IMG/VR virus record: IMGVR_UViG_3300030102_007626
Span: 35,562 to 99,561 of that record
DNA: 64,000 nt
Reading direction: 5' to 3' (one strand)
From: a virus
Below, piece after piece: positions 7,167 through 36,148 of the stretch (positions are counted from its first letter, which is position 1; each line of letters begins with the position of its first letter). The notes below the pieces were generated by a model, which was not told the DNA's origin, did not search any database, and was given only the letters and a program-made list of their open reading frames with translations. The position numbers and the translations under genes are program-made.

Positions 7167-7466
7167 ATGTTTTATTTTAAAAAGTTTTTTATGAAAATTT
7201 ATAATTATATAAAAAATAGGATTATGGCTTTTAAAGACATGTTTAAAGACAAAAATGATGTAAATGAAAAAAATGTTATAGGATTTTTATCATTTGCAGT
7301 GATGGTATTATTTGCTGTTGCTGACCTAATAACAGGATATTTAGGTAAAGACTTAGTAGTTCAAGAATTTATTTATAATTCTTTTTTAGTAATTACTTTA
7401 GGATGTTTTGGTATAGCAGGAGTTGAAAAAATATTTTCTAAAAAAAATAACGAAGAAGAAGTATGA
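7167..7466 (+). CDS. small two-TM protein, holin-like
   Basis: The product (99 aa) has a basic N-terminus and two hydrophobic segments (about residues 39-56 and 66-84) separated by a short polar loop (GKDLVVQEF), ending in a charged tail. Size, topology and position at the head of a unit that also encodes an endolysin and a spanin-like protein suggest a holin, which would permeabilise the inner membrane at lysis. There is no family-specific motif to prove it. Internal Met codons at 7191 and 7224 are alternative starts. The stop overlaps the next start (ATGA). Confidence 0.6.
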   Translation: MFYFKKFFMKIYNYIKNRIMAFKDMFKDKNDVNEKNVIGFLSFAVMVLFAVADLITGYLGKDLVVQEFIYNSFLVITLGCFGIAGVEKIFSKKNNEEEV

Positions 7467-9868
7467 AAAAGTTTTTATCATTATTATTGTGTTTAACTAC
7501 ATTTTTTAGTTTTTCACAAAACAATTGCAATTTTGAAAGTTCTAATGCATACCAACAATGTATTACCGGCCAGAATGGCATACCTGGAGGTCAAGCAATT
7601 ATTATTTTTGAATGGTTTAATGCTCCTGGAAGTTGTGAAGTAGCTTCTGTTTCTTATTCAAATGCAGAAGGTGCTGGCCCATTTACATACCCAGTAGGAC
7701 AGCCTCCTAATGTACCAAGTGGTAATTTTGGTGTGTATGCAGGACCGGGTGGAGGACAACCTGCACTTCCTACATGGTCTGTAGAGCATTATTTGGTATT
7801 AAACTACTCCAACGGAACACAATCTGATACTATAGCATACACTCCATACCCATGTATACCTGGTTGTACAGACCCTAATTCAGAGTCATATAATCCATGG
7901 GCTAGTGTAAATAATGGATCTTGTGAAGGGGGAAATGGAAATGGAGATAATTGTGACCCTGGTGATTTTGAAATAACAGTTGAAATTACACTAGATAGTT
8001 ACCCAGGAGAAACATCTTGGATATTAACATCATTATCTGATGGTGGTTCTCCTATACAAATGCCACAAGGAGAATATAATTTTAGTGATATTGGACAAAC
8101 ATATAGTTATCCTGTTTGTATAGATGAACAAGGAGTTGAACTTATAATAAATGATACTTATGGTGATGGATTAGCTGGATCAACAACAGGTGGAACTATT
8201 GATGGGAATGTTATTATATATGGTTGTAATGGTGAAATACTTTGGGAATTACCTAACCCAAATTTTGGATATACAGGATACTCAGGAGCAGTTTTAGGAG
8301 TTCCTTGCAATAATATTGAACCTATACCAGGTTGTATGGATCCTTTATATCAAGAATATAACCCTGAAGCAAATGTTGATGATGGAACTTGTGAAAATTT
8401 ACATGTATATGGGTGTATTGATACATCAGCTTATAACTATAATCCAGATGCTACTATAAACCAAATAGTAGAAACATGTAATTATACTTTATGGATAGGA
8501 GATGCCGCTGCTGATGGTTGGGGTAATTCATATATAGGAGTATACCAAGATGGGGAAACTTTAGGTACATATACAATGGGACCTGGTTTAAATGAACAAA
8601 TTTTTCTTATCTCATTAAACACAGATAAACCAGTACAAGTTTATTACTTTGAAAATGCTAGTCCTCAACAACCACCTGAAGAAGTTGAATTTCAAACATG
8701 GCAAAATTCTTTTAAACTAACAAATTCAGATGGTGTAGTATTAATGCATGAAGGATCTAATCCATTTGCTAATAATGGACAAGGTGCATTACAACCTTTT
8801 GAATTACCTACTTGGACAACTTATTCTGCATTACCTTATTGTGGAGATTATTGTGAACCAAAAATATATGGCTGTATGGATACTCTTTCAGTTAACTATA
8901 ACCCCTTAGCTAATACAGACGATGGTTCATGTATCCCAATTATATATGGTTGTACTAATGAATTAGCATTTAATTACAATCCAGACGCGACAGTAGATGA
9001 TGGTAGTTGTATACCTACAGTGTATGGGTGTATGGACCCATTATCTTGGAATTATAATTCAGAAGCCAATATAGATGATGGTTCATGTATTTATTTTGGT
9101 TGTATGGATTCGTTAGCATTAAATTATGATCCTAATGCTAATGTTGATAATGGTACGTGCATATATCCAATTTATGGTTGTACAGACCCCGAAGCATTTA
9201 ATTATGATCCTGAAGCTAATGTTGATGATGGTTCTTGTATACCTGTAATATATGGTTGCATGGACCCAACTGCTTTTAATTATAATCCACTAGCTAATAC
9301 TGATAATGGATCATGTGAACCAATTGTTTTTGGTTGTACTGATTCAACAGCATTAAATTATAACCCACTAGCTAACACAGATAATGGTACTTGTATATTA
9401 CCTTTAGCAGGGTGTACAGACCCTAATGCCTATAATTATGACCCAACAGCAAATGTACCCGATTCATCAGCTTGTTTATATGATGCTGGTTGTATTGGGG
9501 GACCAGGTAATCCTTATTGGTTAAATGATGGTTGTTACGCTTGGGTAATAGATGTTGATATTTATTGTTGTGAAGTAGAATGGGACGCTTCATGCCAATC
9601 CATGTATGATTATTGTGAAGCTGGATGGCCTGTAGGAATAGATGAAATGGATATTAATGGAATTATCGTTTATCCAAACCCAACAGATAATACTTTAAAT
9701 ATTGAAACTCATTTATCATTTAAATATGAATTAAGAGATGCAATGGGTAAACTATTATTAACAGGAGAAAATAAACGTTTAGAATTAGGTAAATATAATG
9801 ATGGAGTTTATTTTTTAACCTTAATTCATAACGAGAAAAAATTTAATAAAAGAATTATAAAACAATGA
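7463..9868 (+). CDS. secreted repeat protein with T9SS C-terminal sorting domain
   Basis: The product (801 aa) has a flavobacterial signal peptide (MKKFLSLLLCLTTFFSFSQ). Eleven copies of a short unit of the form GC.D..A.NYNP.AN.DDG.C follow: three between about residues 130 and 345, interleaved with two beta-rich segments, and eight in tandem (8870-9483). A cysteine-rich segment leads to a final 75-residue T9SS type A domain containing VYPNP and ending in a GVYFLTLI strand and a basic tail. In Bacteroidota such domains send proteins through the outer membrane to the cell surface. The phage therefore appears to use the host secretion system. Repeats of this kind are common in Bacteroidota surface proteins, so host origin is likely. 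The substrate or partner is unknown. Confidence 0.85.
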   Translation: MKKFLSLLLCLTTFFSFSQNNCNFESSNAYQQCITGQNGIPGGQAIIIFEWFNAPGSCEVASVSYSNAEGAGPFTYPVGQPPNVPSGNFGVYAGPGGGQPALPTWSVEHYLVLNYSNGTQSDTIAYTPYPCIPGCTDPNSESYNPWASVNNGSCEGGNGNGDNCDPGDFEITVEITLDSYPGETSWILTSLSDGGSPIQMPQGEYNFSDIGQTYSYPVCIDEQGVELIINDTYGDGLAGSTTGGTIDGNVIIYGCNGEILWELPNPNFGYTGYSGAVLGVPCNNIEPIPGCMDPLYQEYNPEANVDDGTCENLHVYGCIDTSAYNYNPDATINQIVETCNYTLWIGDAAADGWGNSYIGVYQDGETLGTYTMGPGLNEQIFLISLNTDKPVQVYYFENASPQQPPEEVEFQTWQNSFKLTNSDGVVLMHEGSNPFANNGQGALQPFELPTWTTYSALPYCGDYCEPKIYGCMDTLSVNYNPLANTDDGSCIPIIYGCTNELAFNYNPDATVDDGSCIPTVYGCMDPLSWNYNSEANIDDGSCIYFGCMDSLALNYDPNANVDNGTCIYPIYGCTDPEAFNYDPEANVDDGSCIPVIYGCMDPTAFNYNPLANTDNGSCEPIVFGCTDSTALNYNPLANTDNGTCILPLAGCTDPNAYNYDPTANVPDSSACLYDAGCIGGPGNPYWLNDGCYAWVIDVDIYCCEVEWDASCQSMYDYCEAGWPVGIDEMDINGIIVYPNPTDNTLNIETHLSFKYELRDAMGKLLLTGENKRLELGKYNDGVYFLTLIHNEKKFNKRIIKQ
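8870..9483 (+). repeat. eight tandem 24-26-codon repeats in the secreted protein
   Basis: Successive units begin at 8870, 8948, 9026, 9098, 9176, 9254, 9332 and 9410, a 78-base period with one 72-base step. Each encodes GC(T/M)D, an aromatic Asn-Tyr-Asn/Asp-Pro core and a closing Asp/Asn-Gly-Ser/Thr-Cys. The regular period suggests expansion by unequal recombination or slippage, and copy number may vary between relatives. Confidence 0.85.
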
Positions 9869-13621: not shown

Positions 13622-14416
13622 ATGAAAAAAGTAAAAATATCTCACGAAGTACCATTTTGTTTATTAAGTAAAAGTCTTGAATTTAATGACTATGATTATT
13701 GTTTACCTCATTTATTAGATCAAAATGAAGAGTATAGAACGTTTTTTTATAATGTTAAAAGTATAGATAGATATGTTGTAATGGATAATTCACTACATGA
13801 ATTAGGGGAAGCATACAATACAGAACGTTTAATGTATTGGATTAAAGAAATTAAACCTAATGAATTTATAGTACCTGATGTTTGGGAAAATTATAGTGAA
13901 TCAGTTAGAAATGCTAAAATATGGTCTCAAATTGAATTACCTGAAGGAGTAACTAAAGTTGCAGTAGTACAAGCTAAAACAAAACACTATGCAGCATTAT
14001 GTACTCAAGTGTATAAAGATTTAGGATATAAAAAAATAGCATATTCATACGGTGCTTCATATTATAATGATGTTTGTCCTCACCCAAATAAAGATTTTGG
14101 TAAAGCAATTGGTAGATATATGGTTATAAATGATTTAATGAAAGATAGAATATTATCTCCAACAGATAGAGTACATCTATTAGGTACTGCTTCTCCCATT
14201 GAATTTGGATTATATAAAGATATGGAATGTATTGAATCAATAGATACATCAAACCCAGTAATGGCTGGTATTGAACAAAAAATGTATTTTGATTTAGGTT
14301 TACCTCATAAACCAGAGGCAAATATGAATAATTTTCAAGATATAGAAGAAAAAGATGCTAATTTAGAGTTTATAGAGTATAATGTTAAAAAGTTTCGTGA
14401 AATAAATGGATTATAG
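13622..14416 (+). CDS. dpdA: DpdA-like DNA deazaguanine transglycosylase
   Basis: The product (264 aa) looks like a short phage member of the TGT/DpdA superfamily, which swaps guanine for a 7-deazaguanine base in DNA. Family-like features are MDNSLHELGEAY with Asp55 in the base-recognition position, EFIVPDVW near 81, VAVVQ near 113, HLLGTASP near 185, and ESIDTSNP with Asp208 as the candidate nucleophile. No zinc-binding tail is visible. The assignment rests strongly on context, because genes for making preQ0 (QueC, QueD, QueE, FolE2) follow within 4 kb. Confidence 0.72.
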   Translation: MKKVKISHEVPFCLLSKSLEFNDYDYCLPHLLDQNEEYRTFFYNVKSIDRYVVMDNSLHELGEAYNTERLMYWIKEIKPNEFIVPDVWENYSESVRNAKIWSQIELPEGVTKVAVVQAKTKHYAALCTQVYKDLGYKKIAYSYGASYYNDVCPHPNKDFGKAIGRYMVINDLMKDRILSPTDRVHLLGTASPIEFGLYKDMECIESIDTSNPVMAGIEQKMYFDLGLPHKPEANMNNFQDIEEKDANLEFIEYNVKKFREINGL

Positions 14417-14444
14417 CTTGGAGATTATAAGTTTTTTTCTTATA
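14414..14444 (+). promoter_or_regulatory. possible promoter, CTTGG-type variant
   Basis: TAGCTTGG, then TTCTTATA 17 bases after the first hexamer, precede the gene at 14464. The layout matches the elements at 29976, 33398 and 51178. The upstream box overlaps the dpdA stop region. Confidence 0.35.
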
Positions 14445-14463
14445 TTATCACAAATTAAAGGTT

Positions 14464-14967
14464 ATGTTATACAATACGTCTGATGAAAAAACTGTAAGGC
14501 AAAAAATTAAACAGTTACAACCCTTAAATTATAATCAATTCTTTTGGTGGAGACGATATACAACAAAAACACCACCATTACCAAAAAAATCAACATTTTT
14601 AGATCGTATTAAAAACGGTGAATATGAATTTTCACATTATTACTGGCAGTGGAAATTAACTGAGATAGAACTTAATGAAATATTTAAATCTTATGGTAAT
14701 GATCATCAAAGATTAGTTGAATCAAACCAAGTTGATTTAGCTCGTAGAAAACGATTAATTGAGGATTTTGAAAAAGATGAAACTGCTAAATTAGAAGCAC
14801 TACAAAAAGGTTTTTTACGAGAATTTGTTATGACAAAAGATGAGTATGAAGAGCATATTATGAATTTTGATGGTACAACAGAAGAATTTTATATGTATTG
14901 TTTAAAAACATTTGATCGCTCTGGTAGATCAATAGAAAGAAGAGGTAGACCCCCAAAACAAAAATGA
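14464..14967 (+). CDS. unrecognised protein with C-terminal AT-hook
   Basis: The product (167 aa) has an aromatic, basic N-terminal part (FFWWRRYTT), a charged helical middle and a tail RRGRPPKQK with the AT-hook core. It lies between dpdA and queC, so a DNA-binding accessory role in base modification is possible, but nothing in the sequence proves it. The start has the GGTTATG context. The stop overlaps the next start by four bases. Confidence 0.7.
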   Translation: MLYNTSDEKTVRQKIKQLQPLNYNQFFWWRRYTTKTPPLPKKSTFLDRIKNGEYEFSHYYWQWKLTEIELNEIFKSYGNDHQRLVESNQVDLARRKRLIEDFEKDETAKLEALQKGFLREFVMTKDEYEEHIMNFDGTTEEFYMYCLKTFDRSGRSIERRGRPPKQK

Positions 14968-15263
14968 AAGATAAAATAACTGAACATATAGAAGATTTAC
15001 CAAGAGAAATTAGTAAAATAAATGTTGATTCTCTTATAGATAACTTAACTAACCTCAAAAAGAAATATGAGAAAAAGGGTTATAGAAATATGGAGGTGTC
15101 CATACGAGAAGATTTAGGTATTCTTGATATGTCCTTATTTGGTGATAGAGATTTAACTGAAAAAGAAAAATATGAAGATGAACGAATTAGCGTTATCTTT
15201 AGAACCAAAAGTAAAACCTCTAAAGGTGAAACTAGAGATGATTTATTAAACCTAAACAAATAA
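14964..15263 (+). CDS. unrecognised charged protein (99 aa)
   Basis: The product is a highly charged helical protein with a possible coiled coil (DSLIDNLTNLKKKYEKKG) followed by a strand-rich half (MEVSIREDLGILDMS, RISVIFRTK). No motif is recognised. It overlaps the AT-hook gene upstream and is one of four small genes between dpdA and queC. Confidence 0.65.
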   Translation: MKDKITEHIEDLPREISKINVDSLIDNLTNLKKKYEKKGYRNMEVSIREDLGILDMSLFGDRDLTEKEKYEDERISVIFRTKSKTSKGETRDDLLNLNK

Positions 15264-15264
15264 G

Positions 15265-15357
15265 ATGAGTAAAGAAGAAAATACAGGTTGTTTTGAAGCA
15301 TGGTTAGGAATCGTAATCTTTTCCATAGTAATGATATTATTAATGATGATAGAATGA
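15265..15357 (+). CDS. 30-residue single-TM peptide
   Basis: A short ORF one base after the previous stop. It encodes a polar N-terminus and one hydrophobic helix (WLGIVIFSIVMILLMM). Its stop overlaps the next start (ATGA), typical of true genes here. Function unknown. Confidence 0.55.
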   Translation: MSKEENTGCFEAWLGIVIFSIVMILLMMIE

Positions 15358-15539
15358 CTGAAAAAGACTTAAATAAAAAAATTGAATTTGAAAAATTCCG
15401 TGAAGAATGGAAAGAAAATTGGTATGATTATTATCGTTTATTAGACATAGATTTTGAAGCATTTATGTTAATGAAAGGACTAACAATAGAAGAATTTAAA
15501 CATTTAAATAACGAAGAATTATGGAAAAACATGTTGTAG
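15354..15539 (+). CDS. unrecognised acidic protein (61 aa)
   Basis: The ATG at 15354 overlaps the stop of the TM peptide (ATGA) and is preferred to an upstream in-frame Met at 15300, which would lie inside that gene. The protein is acidic, helical and aromatic-rich (EEWKENWYDYYRLLDIDF). It overlaps queC by 19 bases. Confidence 0.6.
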   Translation: MTEKDLNKKIEFEKFREEWKENWYDYYRLLDIDFEAFMLMKGLTIEEFKHLNNEELWKNML

Positions 15540-16423
15540 TTTCACTATCTGGAGGGATGGACTCCAGTACATTATTATTACGTTGTCTAAAAGAATATGA
15601 CACGGTAACAGCTATTTCATTTGATTATGGACAAAAACATAGAGTTGAACTAGAACGCGCTCAATCATTAGTAGATTATATTAATAATCTTGAAAATAAA
15701 GCAGCAGAAGACGGGCAAAAAGCCCCATATTATCCTGTTAACTATAGAGTAATTAAATTAGATGGTTTAGTAGATTTACTTGATTCTGCTTTAGTAGATG
15801 GGGGAGATGAAGTACCTGAAGGTCATTATGCTGAAGATAATATGAAAGCAACAGTTGTTCCAAATAGAAATAAAATATTTGCTTCTATTACACAAGCAGT
15901 AGCCCTATCTAGGGCAAACCAAACAGGTGAAGGTTGTGATATTGCACTTGGTATTCATGCAGGTGATCATGCTATTTACCCTGATTGTAGACAAGAATTT
16001 AGAGACGCAGATGATGCTGCTTTTAGAATAGGTAATTGGAATGCTGATAAAGTAGGTTATTTTACACCTTATCTTGAAGGTGATAAATTTACTATCTTAC
16101 AAGATGGGGAAAAATTATGTGATTATTTAGGTTTAGATTTTGATGAAGTTTATAAACGAACAAATACAAGCTATAAACCTATTAAACATTATGATAAAAC
16201 AGGACCTGTAGCATGGGAAACACACAACCCTACAAGATGGAAATGGTACTCAGATTATAAATCAGCTTCATCAGTAGAGAGAGTAGAAGCATTTATTAAA
16301 TTAGGAAGACCTGATCCTGTAGCATACGCAGATGAAACAGGACCTGTAGAATGGGAAACAGCAAGAATATATGTTGAACAAGTACTCTCAGAGTATGAAA
16401 AAGAACAATTTAACGTAAAATAA
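15521..16423 (+). CDS. queC: QueC, 7-cyano-7-deazaguanine synthase (zinc cysteines lost)
   Basis: The product (300 aa, against about 225 usual) carries the PP-loop SGGMDSS at residues 10-16 and the QueC hallmarks FDYGQKH and VPNRNKIF. The enzyme converts 7-carboxy-7-deazaguanine to preQ0 with ATP and ammonia. The four zinc cysteines near the C-terminus are missing. Ser217 stands where the first is expected, and Asp245, Ser248 and Ser251 replace the CXXCXXC residues just before the intact VERVEAF helix. Two inserted copies of a D(K/E)TGPV.WET unit (residues 225-234 and 271-280) flank this region. It overlaps queD by one base. Confidence 0.88.
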   Translation: MEKHVVVSLSGGMDSSTLLLRCLKEYDTVTAISFDYGQKHRVELERAQSLVDYINNLENKAAEDGQKAPYYPVNYRVIKLDGLVDLLDSALVDGGDEVPEGHYAEDNMKATVVPNRNKIFASITQAVALSRANQTGEGCDIALGIHAGDHAIYPDCRQEFRDADDAAFRIGNWNADKVGYFTPYLEGDKFTILQDGEKLCDYLGLDFDEVYKRTNTSYKPIKHYDKTGPVAWETHNPTRWKWYSDYKSASSVERVEAFIKLGRPDPVAYADETGPVEWETARIYVEQVLSEYEKEQFNVK

Positions 16424-16884
16424 TGAAACATCAATCAACTAAAATATTTGACGGATTCAGTACAGTATTTCGTCAATGGAGAGCAAAAGAAACACATTGT
16501 AGTTATTTACATGGATATGGAGTATCATTTAAAGTAACATTTGAAGGTCAACTTGATCATAGGAATTGGGTTTGGGATTTTGGTGGTATGAAAAGAGCTA
16601 AAACCCAAATAGATGGTATGTCCCCAAAAGCTTGGATGGATTACATGTTTGATCATACTTTAATTGCTGCAAATGATGACCCAGAACTAGATTCATTTAG
16701 AATGATGGATGCACAAGGAATAATCCAATTAAGAGTAGTAGATGATACTGGTGCAGAAAAATTTGCTGAGTATATTTATAATAAGTTAAATAGTTTTGTT
16801 GAAGAAGAAACAGATGGTAGAGTAAGAGTCACCCAAGTTGAATTTATGGAACATGGAAAAAACACAGCGATTTATGGAGAATAA
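16423..16884 (+). CDS. queD: QueD-like 6-carboxytetrahydropterin synthase, altered zinc site
   Basis: The product (153 aa) belongs to the PTPS/QueD fold that makes 6-carboxytetrahydropterin from dihydroneopterin triphosphate. The conserved catalytic Cys26 (THCSYLHG), Asp77-His78 (MFDHTL) and Glu143 (FMEHG) are present. Of the three usual zinc histidines, the first is Phe16 (FSTVFRQW) and the third is Tyr32 (LHGY for LHGH), leaving His30. His25 might substitute. It sits between queC and queE, so pathway membership is well supported, but it is a divergent branch. Confidence 0.8.
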   Translation: MKHQSTKIFDGFSTVFRQWRAKETHCSYLHGYGVSFKVTFEGQLDHRNWVWDFGGMKRAKTQIDGMSPKAWMDYMFDHTLIAANDDPELDSFRMMDAQGIIQLRVVDDTGAEKFAEYIYNKLNSFVEEETDGRVRVTQVEFMEHGKNTAIYGE

Positions 16885-16946
16885 TTACTGGTATGTGACT
16901 ACAACTTATAGCAATTTTAAATTTAAATACATTTTAGTAAAATAAT

Positions 16947-17732
16947 ATGGAAAGACCTTTAGGAAGAATAAAAGATTATGATAAAAGATTACCTGTACTA
17001 GAACTATACAGGTGTGTTCAATCTGAAGGGAGTAGATTTGGTAGACCAACTATAGCAGTTAGAACAACTGGATGTACACATAGGTGCTATTTTGGAGAAG
17101 AAGGAGGATGGTGTGATAGTTGGTATACTAGTATACATCCAGAAAAAGGAACATTTAATTTTAATGATATTATCAAAATATATGATGAAAATCCTCATGT
17201 AAAAGAGATGATGTTAACAGGTGGTTCACCCACAATGCATCCTAAGTTAGTAAATGAATTAACTCATTTTGCAAATCAAAGAGACATTCTTATTACTATT
17301 GAAACTGAAGGTTCTCATTTTCTTAAAACAGATTTCCCTCTAAATCTTATTTCTTTATCTCCTAAATTTTCTAATTCTGTCCCTAAATTAGGTGCTCTAA
17401 CACCTAATGGAAAAGAAACAGATGAAAGAATGATTAAACAACATAATAAATTAAGATTAAATTATAGTGCTATTAGAAAAACATTAGATTACCATACTGA
17501 TTATCATTATAAACCAGTTTGGGATGGTACTGATGAATGTTTAAAAGAAATAGAAGATTTTAGAATTAAAATGGAAATCCCTAAGCATAAAACATTTATA
17601 ATGCCTGCGGGTGATACAAGAAAAGAATTAATTAAAATGTATCCTTTAGTATTTGATTTATGTGCTGAACATGGTTATAACTTAACAGGTAGGGATCATA
17701 TAATAGCATTTGACACAGAACGAGGAGTATAA
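16947..17732 (+). CDS. queE: QueE, 7-carboxy-7-deazaguanine synthase (radical SAM)
   Basis: The product (261 aa) is a radical SAM enzyme that contracts the pterin ring to 7-carboxy-7-deazaguanine. The N-terminal VLELYRCVQSEGSRFGRPT motif is typical of QueE. The 4Fe-4S cysteines are Cys43, Cys47 and Cys56, a CX3CX8C spacing, where many QueE proteins have CX3CX2C. Six extra residues (YFGEEG) appear inserted between the second and third cysteines. The SAM-binding motif reads LTGGSP in place of GGEP. It lies directly between queD and folE2. Confidence 0.87.
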   Translation: MERPLGRIKDYDKRLPVLELYRCVQSEGSRFGRPTIAVRTTGCTHRCYFGEEGGWCDSWYTSIHPEKGTFNFNDIIKIYDENPHVKEMMLTGGSPTMHPKLVNELTHFANQRDILITIETEGSHFLKTDFPLNLISLSPKFSNSVPKLGALTPNGKETDERMIKQHNKLRLNYSAIRKTLDYHTDYHYKPVWDGTDECLKEIEDFRIKMEIPKHKTFIMPAGDTRKELIKMYPLVFDLCAEHGYNLTGRDHIIAFDTERGV

Positions 17733-17788
17733 AGATATATTTGGATATTATTAAAAAATTTTTTATATTAACATAAATAAGTTATTAA

Positions 17789-18829
17789 ATGAGCGAAAAA
17801 AATACAATCGAAAAAAAATTTGTTAAAAAATATGAATGGGTAGGTGATGTTAAATCATATAAAGAACCCGAAGACAACGAACATTCATTAAAATATAATG
17901 AACCTAATAGAGAATATGATAAAAATTATTTTCCTACAAAAAAAGATATTGAAACATTTCCCGATTTACAAAATGGACCCTCTTCACTTATTCAAGGTTC
18001 ACCTGTAGAAATTCAACAAGTAGGAATTCATAACTTTAGATTACCTTTAAGATATAAAACACGAGATAATGGTGATATAGAATTAGAAACTAAAGTAACA
18101 GGAACAGTATCACTTGAAGCACATAAAAAAGGTATTAATATGTCTCGTATTATGAGATCATTTTATGAATTTAAAAATGATACTTTTAGTATTGATAAGT
18201 TAGAAACAGTTTTATCTGCTTACCAAGATAAATTAAAAGCATTTGATTCTAAAATAGCACTTAAATTTTCATATCCTATTATTCAAAAATCATTAAGATC
18301 AGATAATGCTGGGTACCAATATTATGATGTTACTTTAGAGGGTGATTTAAATAAACAAGGTGAATTAAGAAAAATTATTCATTTTGATTTTGTATACTCT
18401 TCAGCTTGTCCTTGTTCTTATGAATTAGCTGAATATGCTAGAAAATATAGAAATAAAGCAACAGTATCTCATTCACAAAGATCTGTAACTAGAATATCAA
18501 TTGAATTTGATGATATGGTTTGGATAGAAGAATTACAAGAAATGTGTGCTAAAGCATTACAAACTGAAACACAAGTAGTAGTAAAAAGAGAAGATGAAAT
18601 GGCATTTGCTGAATTAAATGGGTCATATTTAAAGTTTGTAGAAGATGCTGCTAGATTATTATATAAACAATTAATTGATGATAAAAGAATAAAAGATTTT
18701 AGAATTATATGTTCTCACCAAGAATCCCTCCATTCACATGATGCTATTTCAGTTATGCTAGCTCCTGATAGTAATTTTAGTGGAGATATTCCCCATGAAC
18801 TGTGGTCAAGTTTAATACATATTTCTTAA
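17789..18829 (+). CDS. folE2: GTP cyclohydrolase FolE2 (GCYH-IB)
   Basis: The product (346 aa) belongs to the type IB GTP cyclohydrolase family, which turns GTP into dihydroneopterin triphosphate, the first step of the deazaguanine pathway. Conserved blocks are HKKGINMSR near 112, ACPCS with Cys207/Cys209, HSQRS at 228-232 and QESLHSHDA near 311. About 70 poorly conserved residues precede the catalytic fold. No gene for QueF, which would reduce preQ0 further, is visible in the window. Confidence 0.9.
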   Translation: MSEKNTIEKKFVKKYEWVGDVKSYKEPEDNEHSLKYNEPNREYDKNYFPTKKDIETFPDLQNGPSSLIQGSPVEIQQVGIHNFRLPLRYKTRDNGDIELETKVTGTVSLEAHKKGINMSRIMRSFYEFKNDTFSIDKLETVLSAYQDKLKAFDSKIALKFSYPIIQKSLRSDNAGYQYYDVTLEGDLNKQGELRKIIHFDFVYSSACPCSYELAEYARKYRNKATVSHSQRSVTRISIEFDDMVWIEELQEMCAKALQTETQVVVKREDEMAFAELNGSYLKFVEDAARLLYKQLIDDKRIKDFRIICSHQESLHSHDAISVMLAPDSNFSGDIPHELWSSLIHIS

Positions 18830-18841
18830 ATTATATAAATT

Positions 18842-19393
18842 ATGCAAAAACAAAAACAAAAACCAGAATTATCATTACAAGAAAAGTCTGATCAAATAAC
18901 ACAACAAGAATTAGAAAAAAAAGAAAAATATGTTCCATTTGTAAGTGAAGTTGAAGAATTTAACGCAACAATGGGTAAACCTAATAATTATGAACCAAAA
19001 ATCCCTGAAAAAAAGGAGTGGCAGTTTGTATATGACTTCATCCTTGAAGAGCTCGAAGAATATAAAGAAGCCTGTGAAACCGGAAATATTACTGAAGTTC
19101 TTGATGCTTTATGTGACATTGCCTATGTTTCGTTGGGCAACGGCACTATGTTACATGGTCTTAAGGATCAAATATGGCCCGCGTATCAAGAAGTACAAGC
19201 AAGTAATATGTCAAAAGCTTGTATTAACGAAGAAGAGGCACAAGAGACCGTTAGGGTACGTTCTGAAGAGCAAAAGGAACCATGTCACTATGAAAAGGTT
19301 GGAGACTATTATATCGTCTATAGAACACGTGATAAAAAAGTAATGAAAAATATAAATTATTTTAGACCAAATCTAAAACAATTTTTAAAGTAA
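18842..19393 (+). CDS. MazG-like nucleotide pyrophosphohydrolase
   Basis: The product (183 aa) has an all-alpha core with the MazG metal-binding pattern: FILEELEEYKEA (EEXXE) near residue 67 and EVLDALCDIAYV (EXXD) near 85. Such enzymes hydrolyse (d)NTPs or related nucleotides. It follows the deazaguanine genes and precedes the polymerase, so nucleotide-pool control is likely. Bases 19020-19270 use more GC-rich codons than neighbouring genes and leave a long spurious frame open, which may reflect a recent acquisition. Confidence 0.78.
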   Translation: MQKQKQKPELSLQEKSDQITQQELEKKEKYVPFVSEVEEFNATMGKPNNYEPKIPEKKEWQFVYDFILEELEEYKEACETGNITEVLDALCDIAYVSLGNGTMLHGLKDQIWPAYQEVQASNMSKACINEEEAQETVRVRSEEQKEPCHYEKVGDYYIVYRTRDKKVMKNINYFRPNLKQFLK

Positions 19394-21157
19394 ATGTATA
19401 AGAAGTGTTTTGCCGAATATAAAAGTTATAATAAATACTTGATCCACTTATGGACTGATGAGGGCTATTCAACCACAGAATGGTCCTCTCCTGCTTATAT
19501 TGAATGTGATGAAAGTGAAGCGGAGTATAAAGGTCTAAATAATGAACCATTAAAAAAGATATATAAATGGAAAAGAGATATGGATGGTCTTCATTTTCAT
19601 GATATGTCACCTTATCAAAATTTTTTAATTGATAAGTATGGAACTAATGATGAACCATCAACTACTCATAAGGAAATATTTTTTGATATAGAAATTGAAA
19701 TGGGAGATGCTTTAACTCCTGAATATATCCAATCTGCACCTAAAAAAGTTACTTCAATTGCTTGGTATTTTAAACAAGAAGATGAATGGAAAATTATAAT
19801 ACTAGATCCTAAACAACAAATTCAACCAACAGTAAATGGGAATAAAGAAATAATTCCTGTTTACAATGAAGAAGTATTATTATCTAAATTTCTTACTTAT
19901 ATGAGAGAATTAGACCCAGATATTCTTATAGGTTATAATAGTGATTATTTTGATATTCCTTATTTATACTATAGAATTAAAAAGGTATTAGGTGAGGAAA
20001 TGGTAGAGTATTTATCTCCAATCCAACAAGTTAAAGAAAAACGTAGTTTTAGAACAGGTGAAATTTATGATTCTAAACAACCTATAGAGATAGCAGGTGT
20101 TGAATCACTTGATTATATGCGTTTACATAAAAAATATAGTTGGGAAGATGAACCAAGTTGGAAGTTAGATGCATTAGGTGAAAAATATGCTGATTTAAAT
20201 AAAATAGAATATAATGGTTCTTTAGATAGATTATTTGAAGAAGATATTGAAACATTTATAGAATATAACTTTCGTGATGTTGAAATTTTAGTTGAATTAG
20301 ATAAAAAATTAGAATATTTAGCACTAACCAAAAACCTATCCCATAAAGGCAAACATAACTATGGAGAAGTATACCATAATACAGTTACACAAGATGGTGC
20401 TATTTCAGCTTATTTATTATCTGAAGGTATAGTTCCACCACCTAAGGAAAAACACCAAGAAAAGAAAAAGGGATATGCAGGTGGTTATTTATTTTGTCCT
20501 AAAGCAGGTATTTACAAATATATGTTTGATGAAGATTTAACTTCATTATATCCTTGTATTATTATGTCTTTAAATATAGGTAAAGAAACAATGGTGGGTA
20601 GAATTATAAGTGATACTTTACCTGAAAATTTAAGATATAGACCTTATATGAATGCTGAAACAGGTTTACCTATACCTTCTAGAAATAACTATTTAGGTTT
20701 AAATGATTTAAAGAAAAAAAACCCACAAGAAAAACTTACAATTGAAAATGCTAAAGGTAAACGTACTCAAATTGAAGTAGATGCCTTAATTAATTTAATT
20801 GAGGATATGAAAATGGCTGTATCTGCAAATGGTACATTTTTTAGAACAGACAAACAATCAGTATTATCAATTATCTTAGATAAATGGTTTAATGAAAGAG
20901 TAAAGTACAAAAATCAAATGAAAAAAGCATATAAAGCAGGTAATGCTGAATTAGGTGCTTCGTTTCATTTAAAGCAATATACAATGAAAATTTTGCTAAA
21001 CAGTTTGTATGGTGCAACTGCTTTACCTTCATTTAGATACGCAATGAATAAAGCAATATTAAGTGAAGCAATTACCTTAAGTGGTTGGAGAATTATCCAA
21101 GAATCAGCTTTAGCAGCAAATAGACATATTAATAAACTAATGAAAACAGAAGTATAA
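19394..21157 (+). CDS. gp43: DNA polymerase B, N-terminal part (exonuclease, palm A and B)
   Basis: The product (587 aa) is the first part of a T4 gp43-like family B polymerase. Exonuclease motifs are FFDIEIE near 97, GYNSDYFDIPY at 180-190 and YNFRDVE at 291-297. Polymerase motif A is DEDLTSLYP at 379-387 and motif B ends in NSLYG at 536-540. The gene stops after the motif B helix, before the DTDS catalytic motif, which is encoded two genes downstream at 21422. The two parts together (about 900 aa) equal a normal gp43, so a split active enzyme is likely. Confidence 0.93.
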   Translation: MYKKCFAEYKSYNKYLIHLWTDEGYSTTEWSSPAYIECDESEAEYKGLNNEPLKKIYKWKRDMDGLHFHDMSPYQNFLIDKYGTNDEPSTTHKEIFFDIEIEMGDALTPEYIQSAPKKVTSIAWYFKQEDEWKIIILDPKQQIQPTVNGNKEIIPVYNEEVLLSKFLTYMRELDPDILIGYNSDYFDIPYLYYRIKKVLGEEMVEYLSPIQQVKEKRSFRTGEIYDSKQPIEIAGVESLDYMRLHKKYSWEDEPSWKLDALGEKYADLNKIEYNGSLDRLFEEDIETFIEYNFRDVEILVELDKKLEYLALTKNLSHKGKHNYGEVYHNTVTQDGAISAYLLSEGIVPPPKEKHQEKKKGYAGGYLFCPKAGIYKYMFDEDLTSLYPCIIMSLNIGKETMVGRIISDTLPENLRYRPYMNAETGLPIPSRNNYLGLNDLKKKNPQEKLTIENAKGKRTQIEVDALINLIEDMKMAVSANGTFFRTDKQSVLSIILDKWFNERVKYKNQMKKAYKAGNAELGASFHLKQYTMKILLNSLYGATALPSFRYAMNKAILSEAITLSGWRIIQESALAANRHINKLMKTEV

Positions 21158-21420
21158 TGGCACTTTCACCACAATCAATTAGAAAAAATGTTCAAGTTAA
21201 ATTTGATGATGTTATAGTAGATAAACAAACTATAATTGAAAGAAGTGAATCTTGGACAGAAAAACAAGAAATATTATTTAAAAAATTCCTTAAACAAGGA
21301 GGTAAATGTAAAATACAAGGTGTTAAGATAGAAGTAGTTCCACCTCATGAAGTACTTACCTCAAAAGGAGAAAAACCAAGTGGTAAAATGGTAGCACCTG
21401 GAATTGACCAAAGATTTTAA
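21157..21420 (+). CDS. 87-residue ORF inserted between polymerase halves
   Basis: The ORF overlaps the stop of the first polymerase gene by one base and ends just before the second part. The product is lysine-rich, with a helix (WTEKQEILFKKFLKQGG) and a strand-rich end. It has no intein, homing-endonuclease or polymerase motif that I can recognise. It may be a cargo gene left by the event that split the polymerase, or a small partner of the assembled enzyme. Confidence 0.7.
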   Translation: MALSPQSIRKNVQVKFDDVIVDKQTIIERSESWTEKQEILFKKFLKQGGKCKIQGVKIEVVPPHEVLTSKGEKPSGKMVAPGIDQRF

Positions 21421-21421
21421 A

Positions 21422-22354
21422 ATGAAGCATATAGAAGACGTACCATGGATGATTTGTGATGAAGGTGATGTAAACTACTGTGCTTATGTAGACACAGATA
21501 GTAATTATTTTCATGCTGAACCTATACTAAAACACTTCTATCCTGATTTTGATAAAATGTCTGATGAAGATAAGGATGAAAAACTTGAAAAAGTAGCCCT
21601 TAAATATCAAGATATTATTACAGATTCTTATAACACATTGGCTAAAGAATGTTTTAATGTTCCTACTCATAGACTTGAAATGAAAACTGAATGTGTAATT
21701 AGATCAGCCTATTTTAGAAAAACTAGAAGATATGCTCAATGGATTACTAAACAAGAAGGTATAGTAAAAGAGTCACTTGATATAAAAGGCCTTGAATTTA
21801 AAAAGGCAAATTTTCCACCTGTATTAGGTAAATTTTTTAAAGACATTTTAATTAATGTTTTGAAAGGTTCTACACAAACTGACATAGATCAAAAAGTTAA
21901 AGAATTTAAAAAACAAATATTAAATGGAGAAATACCTTTAGTTAAATTAGGTAACCCAACAGGAGTAAAAACATTAAACAAATATATGGGGCGTAAACCC
22001 AAAGCAGGTGAAATGTTTACTCAAATGACTAAAGGTGCTCCTGTAAGTGCTAAAGCAGCTGCTGTGTATAATGATTTAATTAGGTTTTGGAGATTAAATA
22101 CTAAACATTCTTATATAGCACAAGGTGATAAAATTAAATATATCTATTTAAAACCAAACCCATACCAGATAGATACATTAGGGTTTTTAGATTTTGATTT
22201 ACCATCTAAAATAGAAGAGTTTATGGAAAAATATGCTGATAGACAAAAGATATTTGATGCTATATTACTTAATAAATTAGAAGGTTTTTATGACGATTTA
22301 GGTTGGTCATTAAATTTAAACCCATATAAAGACAAGTTTTTTAATTTTAGTTAG
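21422..22354 (+). CDS. gp43: DNA polymerase B, C-terminal part (motif C and thumb)
   Basis: The ATG at 21422 follows the stop of the intervening ORF by one base and is preferred to an in-frame TTG at 21404. The product (310 aa) carries the catalytic motif C YVDTDSNYF with DTDS at residues 24-27, then the thumb with TRRYAQW. The C-terminus ends in an aromatic peptide (YKDKFFNFS) that resembles a sliding-clamp-binding tail. The clamp gene follows. It must pair with the 19394 product to make a complete polymerase. Confidence 0.92.
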   Translation: MKHIEDVPWMICDEGDVNYCAYVDTDSNYFHAEPILKHFYPDFDKMSDEDKDEKLEKVALKYQDIITDSYNTLAKECFNVPTHRLEMKTECVIRSAYFRKTRRYAQWITKQEGIVKESLDIKGLEFKKANFPPVLGKFFKDILINVLKGSTQTDIDQKVKEFKKQILNGEIPLVKLGNPTGVKTLNKYMGRKPKAGEMFTQMTKGAPVSAKAAAVYNDLIRFWRLNTKHSYIAQGDKIKYIYLKPNPYQIDTLGFLDFDLPSKIEEFMEKYADRQKIFDAILLNKLEGFYDDLGWSLNLNPYKDKFFNFS

Positions 22355-34639: not shown

Positions 34640-36148
34640 ATGCAAAATACACCTAAATTAAAATTACCTAAACTTAAAAAAGTAGGTGATAAGTTACCAC
34701 AATTTGATGTTTCTAAAAAATTTAAATATCTTCCTAAAAATAAAAGGAAAAAAATCTTATTAATTTGTGATGATATTAGAGTCCATTCAGGAGTTGCAAC
34801 AGTTGCTCGTGAAATAGTAATTAATACTTGTCAACATTTTAATTGGGTACAAGTAGCAGGAGCTATTAAACACCCTGAACAAGGGAAAAAATTTGATTTA
34901 TCTCAGGATGCTAACACAAACGCTAAAATTAATGACTCTTCAGTTATACTTTATCCTGTTGATGGATATGGAAATGCAGATTTAGTTAGACAGTTTATTA
35001 CTATAGAAAAACCTGATGCTGTAATGATTTTTACAGACCCTAGATATTTTGAATGGTTGTTTATGATTGAAAATGAAATTAGAAAGCAAATTCCTATTAT
35101 TTATTTAAATATTTGGGATGATTATCCAACCCCACTCTATAATAAGTCTTTTTATGAATCATGTGATGCACTTTTAGCTATTTCTAAACAAACAAAACTT
35201 ATAAATGAGCTTGTTTTAGGAGATAAAGCAAAAAATAAAGTAATTGAATATGTACCACATGGTTTAAACCATAATATTTATTATCCTCTTGAAAGTGAAA
35301 ATGATTTAAAAGAATTTGAACAATTTAAAAATCAAGTTTTTGGAGGTAAAGAAAAAGATTTTATATTATTTTTTAACTCTAGAAACATTAGAAGAAAACA
35401 AATTCCTGATACGATGCTTGCTTTTAAGTATTTTTTGGATAAATTACCTAAAGAAAAAGCAAATAAATGCAGTTTAATTTTACATACTGAAGTTATAAGT
35501 GAAGCTGGTACTAATTTAGAAGAAGTAAGAAAAATTCTATTTAAAGATTACCCTGAAGCAATTTTATTTTCCCAAAATAAATTAGGAAATAAAGAATTAA
35601 ATTTTATGTATAATTTAGCAGATGCTCAAATTTTACTAACTTCAAATGAAGGTTGGGGATTAACCATAACAGAAGCTATACTAGCAGGTACTCCAATTAT
35701 AGCTAATGTAACTGGTGGAATGCAAGACCAAATGGGATTTGAAGATGAAGATGGTAATTGGTATGACCCAACTCCTAAAGTACCTTCAAACCATACAGGA
35801 AGATATACTAAACATGGAAACTGGGCATTTCCAGTATACCCAACAAATAGATCTTTACAAGGTTCTCCCAAAACTCCTTATATTTGGGATGATAGATGCA
35901 ACCCTGAGGATGCAACTGAACAAATTGTACAGTTATATGAAATGGGGAGAGAAGAAAGAAAACGTAGGGGTAAAGAAGGTAGAAAATGGGCTATAGAAAA
36001 AGTAGGATTTACTAGTGAAGCTATGGCAGAACGCGTAATTAATGCGGTAGATAAACTCTTTAATACGTGGATTCCACGTGAAAAATATGAGTTAATCAAT
36101 GTAAATGAAGTAAAAGAAGACACAATCAATCACGAATTATTATATTAA
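34640..36148 (+). CDS. glycosyltransferase, GT-B (GT4-like)
   Basis: The product (502 aa) has a GT-B layout. The N-terminal Rossmann half starts KKILLICDDIRVHSGVATVAREI. The C-terminal donor half has FFNSRNIRRKQIPDTMLAF and NEGWGLTITEAILAGTPII with the EX7E motif. The N-terminal peptide KLKLPKLKKV recurs at the C-terminus of the next protein through a 30-bp exact repeat. It opens the sugar gene cluster. Confidence 0.82.
   Translation: MQNTPKLKLPKLKKVGDKLPQFDVSKKFKYLPKNKRKKILLICDDIRVHSGVATVAREIVINTCQHFNWVQVAGAIKHPEQGKKFDLSQDANTNAKINDSSVILYPVDGYGNADLVRQFITIEKPDAVMIFTDPRYFEWLFMIENEIRKQIPIIYLNIWDDYPTPLYNKSFYESCDALLAISKQTKLINELVLGDKAKNKVIEYVPHGLNHNIYYPLESENDLKEFEQFKNQVFGGKEKDFILFFNSRNIRRKQIPDTMLAFKYFLDKLPKEKANKCSLILHTEVISEAGTNLEEVRKILFKDYPEAILFSQNKLGNKELNFMYNLADAQILLTSNEGWGLTITEAILAGTPIIANVTGGMQDQMGFEDEDGNWYDPTPKVPSNHTGRYTKHGNWAFPVYPTNRSLQGSPKTPYIWDDRCNPEDATEQIVQLYEMGREERKRRGKEGRKWAIEKVGFTSEAMAERVINAVDKLFNTWIPREKYELINVNEVKEDTINHELLY
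34656..34685 (+). repeat. 30-bp direct repeat in glycosyltransferase genes (copy 1)
   Basis: Bases 34656-34685 are identical to 37386-37415 and in the same frame, encoding LKLPKLKKV. The copy here is near the N-terminus. Confidence 0.88.

Follow-up and report, generated by a model that had tools for sequence, protein, structure and literature searches.

What does a virus gain from carrying genes for 7-deazaguanine synthesis directly ahead of its DNA polymerase gene, and which base do these genes make? The question was raised by a window of 64,000 nucleotides (the whole stretch of DNA analyzed here, positions 35562–99561 of the 155,669-base virus record IMGVR_UViG_3300030102_007626). A preliminary description had proposed that FolE2, QueD, QueE, and QueC encoded in this window supply preQ0 and that a short DpdA-like transglycosylase inserts the base into DNA. 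This reading is supported as far as sequence can tell, and we consider it likely that the cluster makes a 7-deazaguanine base and inserts it into the phage's own DNA. From the gene set, the folds, the conserved residues, the synteny, and the absence of later-step genes in the record, we infer what the enzymes do, that DNA is the target, which base results, and that this base would protect the phage. The source virus is a marine phage, probably of Bacteroidota, a host group indicated by the C-terminal Por_Secre_tail domain (type IX secretion sorting) of an 801-aa phage protein encoded at window positions 7463–9868.

A predicted preQ0 pathway ahead of DNA polymerase B

All five ORFs of the gene set lie on the + strand, a short way ahead of the DNA polymerase B gene. 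Matches to Pfam, NCBIfam, and PHROG profiles bear out each of the four pathway enzymes named in the preliminary description. The FolE2-type GTP cyclohydrolase IB (17789–18829, + strand) matches PF02649 (E = 1e-70) and scores 272 bits against NCBIfam NF010200, above the cut-off of 215, and it keeps the CPCS, HxQRS, and LHxH active-site motifs along with the active-site Cys. FolE2 is a known zinc-independent stand-in for FolE (PMC2770081, PMC5007448). QueE, a radical SAM 7-carboxy-7-deazaguanine synthase (16947–17732, + strand), is matched by the phage QueE family phrog_2076 (E = 5e-47), by PF04055, and by the NCBIfam QueE models with scores under their cut-off, and its radical SAM cysteines (C43-X3-C47-X8-C56) are present. 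QueC (15521–16423, + strand; PF06508, E = 5e-36) is an unusual variant that is described below.

QueD (6-carboxytetrahydropterin synthase; 16423–16884, + strand) is matched by the PTPS family PF01242 (E = 1e-15) and by the phage QueD family phrog_2389 (E = 9e-39). The catalytic residues Cys27, Asp70, His71, and Glu110 are all retained, and the zinc-ligand positions hold F, H, and Y in place of H, H, and H (H16 to F and H33 to Y). Loss of these ligands was considered as a speciality of the cluster and rejected, because other phages have it too, among them phi38:2, Iggy, RHEph04, and R7M.

Downstream of FolE2 lies a cluster-linked gene for a MazG-like nucleotide pyrophosphohydrolase (18842–19393, + strand; PF01503, E = 3e-10). 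The polymerase B region that follows (19394–22354) consists of three ORFs of 587, 87, and 316 aa. In many relatives the gene is divided in the same way, with gaps that vary between the three pieces, and others have one ORF of ~840–912 aa. A small protein is encoded between the transglycosylase and QueC genes (14464–14967), but 101 of the 105 places scored for its homologues are elsewhere, and it is therefore no stable part of the cluster.

The transglycosylase is predicted to form a TGT barrel

The 264-aa protein encoded at 13622–14416 (+ strand), hereafter the 13622 protein, gave nothing above cut-off in Pfam and NCBIfam, and a PDB search with the single sequence returned zero matches. Its PHROG matches, phrog_19058 (E = 8e-33) and phrog_20335, are both families of unknown function. 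An AlphaFold (AF2) model was built on a 45-member viral alignment (pLDDT 94.2), and the modeled fold is a full TGT/TIM barrel. In structure comparison, 233 of the 264 residues align with 7ui4, the structure of a DpdA that inserts preQ0 into DNA (Z 17.3, rmsd 3.4), and archaeal and bacterial TGTs align end to end (Z ~17). The comparison with DpdA that the preliminary description had suggested thus finds the barrel present.

Four residues (Asp55, Asp86, Gln117, and Asp208) are conserved, with Asp55 and Asp208 invariant across the 45 viral relatives. The motif that contains Asp208 (VHLLGTASPIEF..SIDTSNP) aligns, in a weak profile match, with VHLLGIARPESF..SIDSTTP of 7ui4, and we propose Asp208 (codon 14243–14245, + strand) as the catalytic nucleophile. 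Asp55 is the likely general acid/base, an assignment made from its motif only. The CxCxxC zinc site of TGT is absent from the protein. Identity as a cellular TGT was considered and dropped, because the Pfam TGT model has no match anywhere in the record.

The family HMM detects a single homologue in each of the phages CP220, immuto, BSP7, and phiST, and every one of these carries 7-deazaguanine genes; the matches include CP220 gp056 (E = 2e-59) and phiST gp042 (E = 2e-14). By sequence, the 13622 protein groups with the CP220/phiST type, rather than with the DpdA1 of Enterobacteria phage 9g or the DpdA2 of Vibrio phage nt-1. We take the CP220/phiST type to be DpdA3, a type reportedly named by Cui et al. 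in 2023 and said to replace guanine completely. The CP220 (Campylobacter phage) and phiST (Cellulophaga phage) homologues are annotated as hypothetical and fall in phrog_19058 and phrog_20335, for which a function is suggested here and which have so far been without one. Membership in DpdA1 (the 9g/Iggy type) was tried and rejected: the hhalign match is not significant (E = 0.39), and phrog_887, the separate PHROG that holds the Iggy DpdA1, is unmatched. Because of this, the link to DpdA is carried by the fold and by the CP220/phiST family. The 9g DpdA1 and nt-1 DpdA2 have the pathway logic and the TGT superfamily in common with the 13622 protein, but nt-1 DpdA2 exceeds it in length and resembles it only weakly in the fold search.

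The CP220 transglycosylase is ~32–33% identical to the 13622 protein over 98% of its length, with family motifs in common, and CP220 also has FolE, QueD, QueE, and QueC as pathway counterparts. In contrast to the window, CP220 has dispersed genes, a QueC with the zinc site, FolE rather than FolE2 as cyclohydrolase, and DNA that is reported to contain dADG (PMC8306585). In 2019, Campylobacter phages were counted among the pathway carriers without DpdA (PMC6884629). With a barrel in the model and a homologue in CP220, the identification of the 13622 protein as a short DpdA-like transglycosylase is supported, and sequence and model together point to a DpdA that would exchange guanine in DNA.

QueC lacks its zinc site and retains its catalytic motifs

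In canonical QueC, a C(x)8CxxCxxC zinc site accompanies the SGGxDS, YxQxHxxE, VPxRN, and YPDC motifs and Tyr189 (PMC13329287). The window QueC retains SGGMDS, YGQKH, VPNRN, YPDC, and the equivalent of the essential Tyr189, but all four zinc cysteines are gone. At the position of the canonical CY...CGxCxxC, the region TNTSYKP...SDYKSASSVER (16160–16282, + strand) has SY...D-x2-S-x2-S in place of CY...C-x2-C-x2-C, and a long variable loop stands where canonical QueC has its zinc cysteines. The protein scores 122 against the NCBIfam QueC model, below the cut-off of 150. Its structural model nevertheless matches canonical QueC (3bl5 and 2pg3, Z 17–18; Z 18.3 to B. subtilis 3bl5), with which all catalytic motifs are in common. 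For the E. coli QueC and QueD reference sequences, PDB alignments and bacterial QueCs served as the only cross-check.

The region is conserved in ~130 viral QueCs, in which the Tyr is kept and the Cys residues are replaced by Ser and others, and essentially every close viral relative that is complete has lost the cysteines and retained the catalytic motifs. The zinc cysteines are likewise missing from cellular relatives in Poseidoniales, Pirellulaceae, Marinimicrobia, and Fastidiosibacteraceae. In the tree, the sampled zinc-less QueCs, those of viruses together with those of marine archaea and planctomycetes, form one group (94/92) adjoining zinc QueCs of Bacteroidota; the exception is RHEph04 QueC, which also misses the motif and lies elsewhere on a long branch. 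The variant conflicts with the view of the zinc motif as a hallmark of QueC, and it opens the question of whether QueC can synthesize a nitrile without zinc. As a marker of dADG phages the zinc-less QueC was rejected, because CP220 QueC carries the zinc site. The marine zinc-site-less QueCs of Poseidoniales, Pirellulaceae, and Marinimicrobia occur at genome-contig loci L268–L323, where FolE often adjoins in the archaea.

The cluster recurs in viruses with FolE and FolE2 exchanged

In a comparison set of 166 non-redundant viral locus groups, all five functions occur together in 66, with hardly any departure from one order and one strand, which rules out chance. The prevailing order is DpdA-QueC-QueD-QueE-FolE/FolE2-(PRT)-MazG, with MazG present in 56 of the 66 complete clusters. 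A phosphoribosyltransferase gene, absent from the window cluster, is present in 35 of them (for example, L087:5846–6238), and its product could salvage the guanine freed by base exchange. The conserved operon, the four preQ0-pathway enzymes, and the adjacency to DNA polymerase B also count toward DNA modification. Palindrome avoidance was tried as a sign of G modification and rejected as uninformative: the 4-mer pattern is no different in CP220, a phage known to have modified DNA.

FolE occurs in 59 of the 166 groups and FolE2 in 49, and no group has both. Along the DpdA tree the FolE2 label switches at least nine times, so the two enzymes are swapped within one slot, and this is good evidence that they do the same job; their alternation also points to a GTP-cyclohydrolase step that the pathway cannot do without. 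FolE2 is nearly missing from cultured phages (three weak records), whereas it is common in uncultured viruses (195 candidates).

QueF is confined to the DpdA branch that contains Flavobacterium phage immuto, mostly alongside a formyltransferase, and the window's branch has neither gene. Immuto is close to the window in QueC (75% identity), QueD (69%), QueE (67%), and MazG (78%); its QueC is likewise zinc-less, and its DpdA is annotated. It differs in having FolE, QueF, a formyltransferase, and a phosphoribosyltransferase, and its DpdA, from the other branch, is ~34% identical. The QueF-bearing related viral clusters (L202, L206–L209, and L132, most also with the formyltransferase) suggest a preQ1-derived, perhaps formylated, DNA base in those viruses.

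The proposed mechanism and the final base

In the mechanism that we propose, FolE2 would convert GTP to dihydroneopterin triphosphate, from which QueD would form 6-carboxytetrahydropterin and QueE would form CDG, and QueC would then carry CDG through ADG to preQ0. The transglycosylase would act during or after replication: Asp208 would attack the glycosidic bond of deoxyguanosine, and guanine would be released and preQ0 coupled in its place, Asp55 probably serving as general acid/base. The benefit to the phage would most likely be protection from host restriction enzymes.

Across the 155,669-base record, which is possibly incomplete, searches for QueF, formyltransferase, phosphoribosyltransferase, and glutamine amidotransferase (GATase_6) found none, and the lack of QueF noted in the preliminary description thus extends to the whole record. 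Because QueF, formyltransferase, and amidotransferase are absent from it, dPreQ0 would be the likeliest final base, followed by dADG. The same cluster could yield dADG if QueC stopped at ADG or if the nitrile were hydrated. CP220, the closest relative by transglycosylase whose DNA chemistry is known, carries dADG, and an unusual QueC could halt at the ADG intermediate. However, CP220 itself has an ordinary QueC with zinc site, so the variant fails to track dADG; moreover, zinc-less QueC is also found in Poseidoniales and Pirellulaceae genomes, which presumably need preQ0 (for tRNA G+ or Q), and immuto pairs the same QueC with QueF, which needs preQ0. We therefore regard dADG as rather unlikely.

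Much less probable is entry of the base as a nucleotide, with 7-deaza-dGTP used by the phage polymerase and dGTP cleared by MazG. A proposal of this kind was made earlier for Campylobacter phages (PMC6884629), the tight linkage of MazG to the cluster would fit it, and the record holds a nucleoside-kinase-like ORF (L006:9179–9727) related to CP220 gp057. That ORF is far from the cluster, however, no recognizable gene would attach deoxyribose to preQ0, and the conserved cluster includes the gene for a TGT-fold transglycosylase. In CP220, the gp057 gene adjoins the transglycosylase gene. The early pathway and the TGT fold would also fit a cluster that boosts queuosine in host tRNA through a transglycosylase acting on tRNA. 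The short length of the 13622 protein and its missing CxCxxC site, the lack of a Pfam TGT match in the record, the absence of tRNA genes from the window, and the homology to a protein of CP220, whose DNA is modified, make this the most improbable of the three alternatives. Exchange of guanine for preQ0 in the phage's DNA is the reading that we prefer.

A possibly zinc-free pathway and its distribution

A canonical zinc site is seen at no step, namely FolE2, QueD (one of three zinc histidines), QueC, and the transglycosylase. We tentatively suggest, while leaning slightly against it, that the pathway is zinc-free throughout, including a zinc-independent QueC that makes preQ0, and that it was possibly selected by marine zinc scarcity; zinc saving by the cluster is a hypothesis. 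These zinc-site losses, the swapping of FolE and FolE2, and the placement of the transglycosylase with CP220 and phiST go beyond the preliminary description.

The kind of system is already known, as preQ0/DpdA DNA modification, and so is the anti-restriction trick. The FolE2 slot and the clade of zinc-site-less QueC appear to be undescribed in the open-licence literature, which is weak evidence of novelty. The CP220-type transglycosylase occurs commonly among uncultured viruses, so cultured phages probably understate how widespread 7-deazaguanine DNA is.
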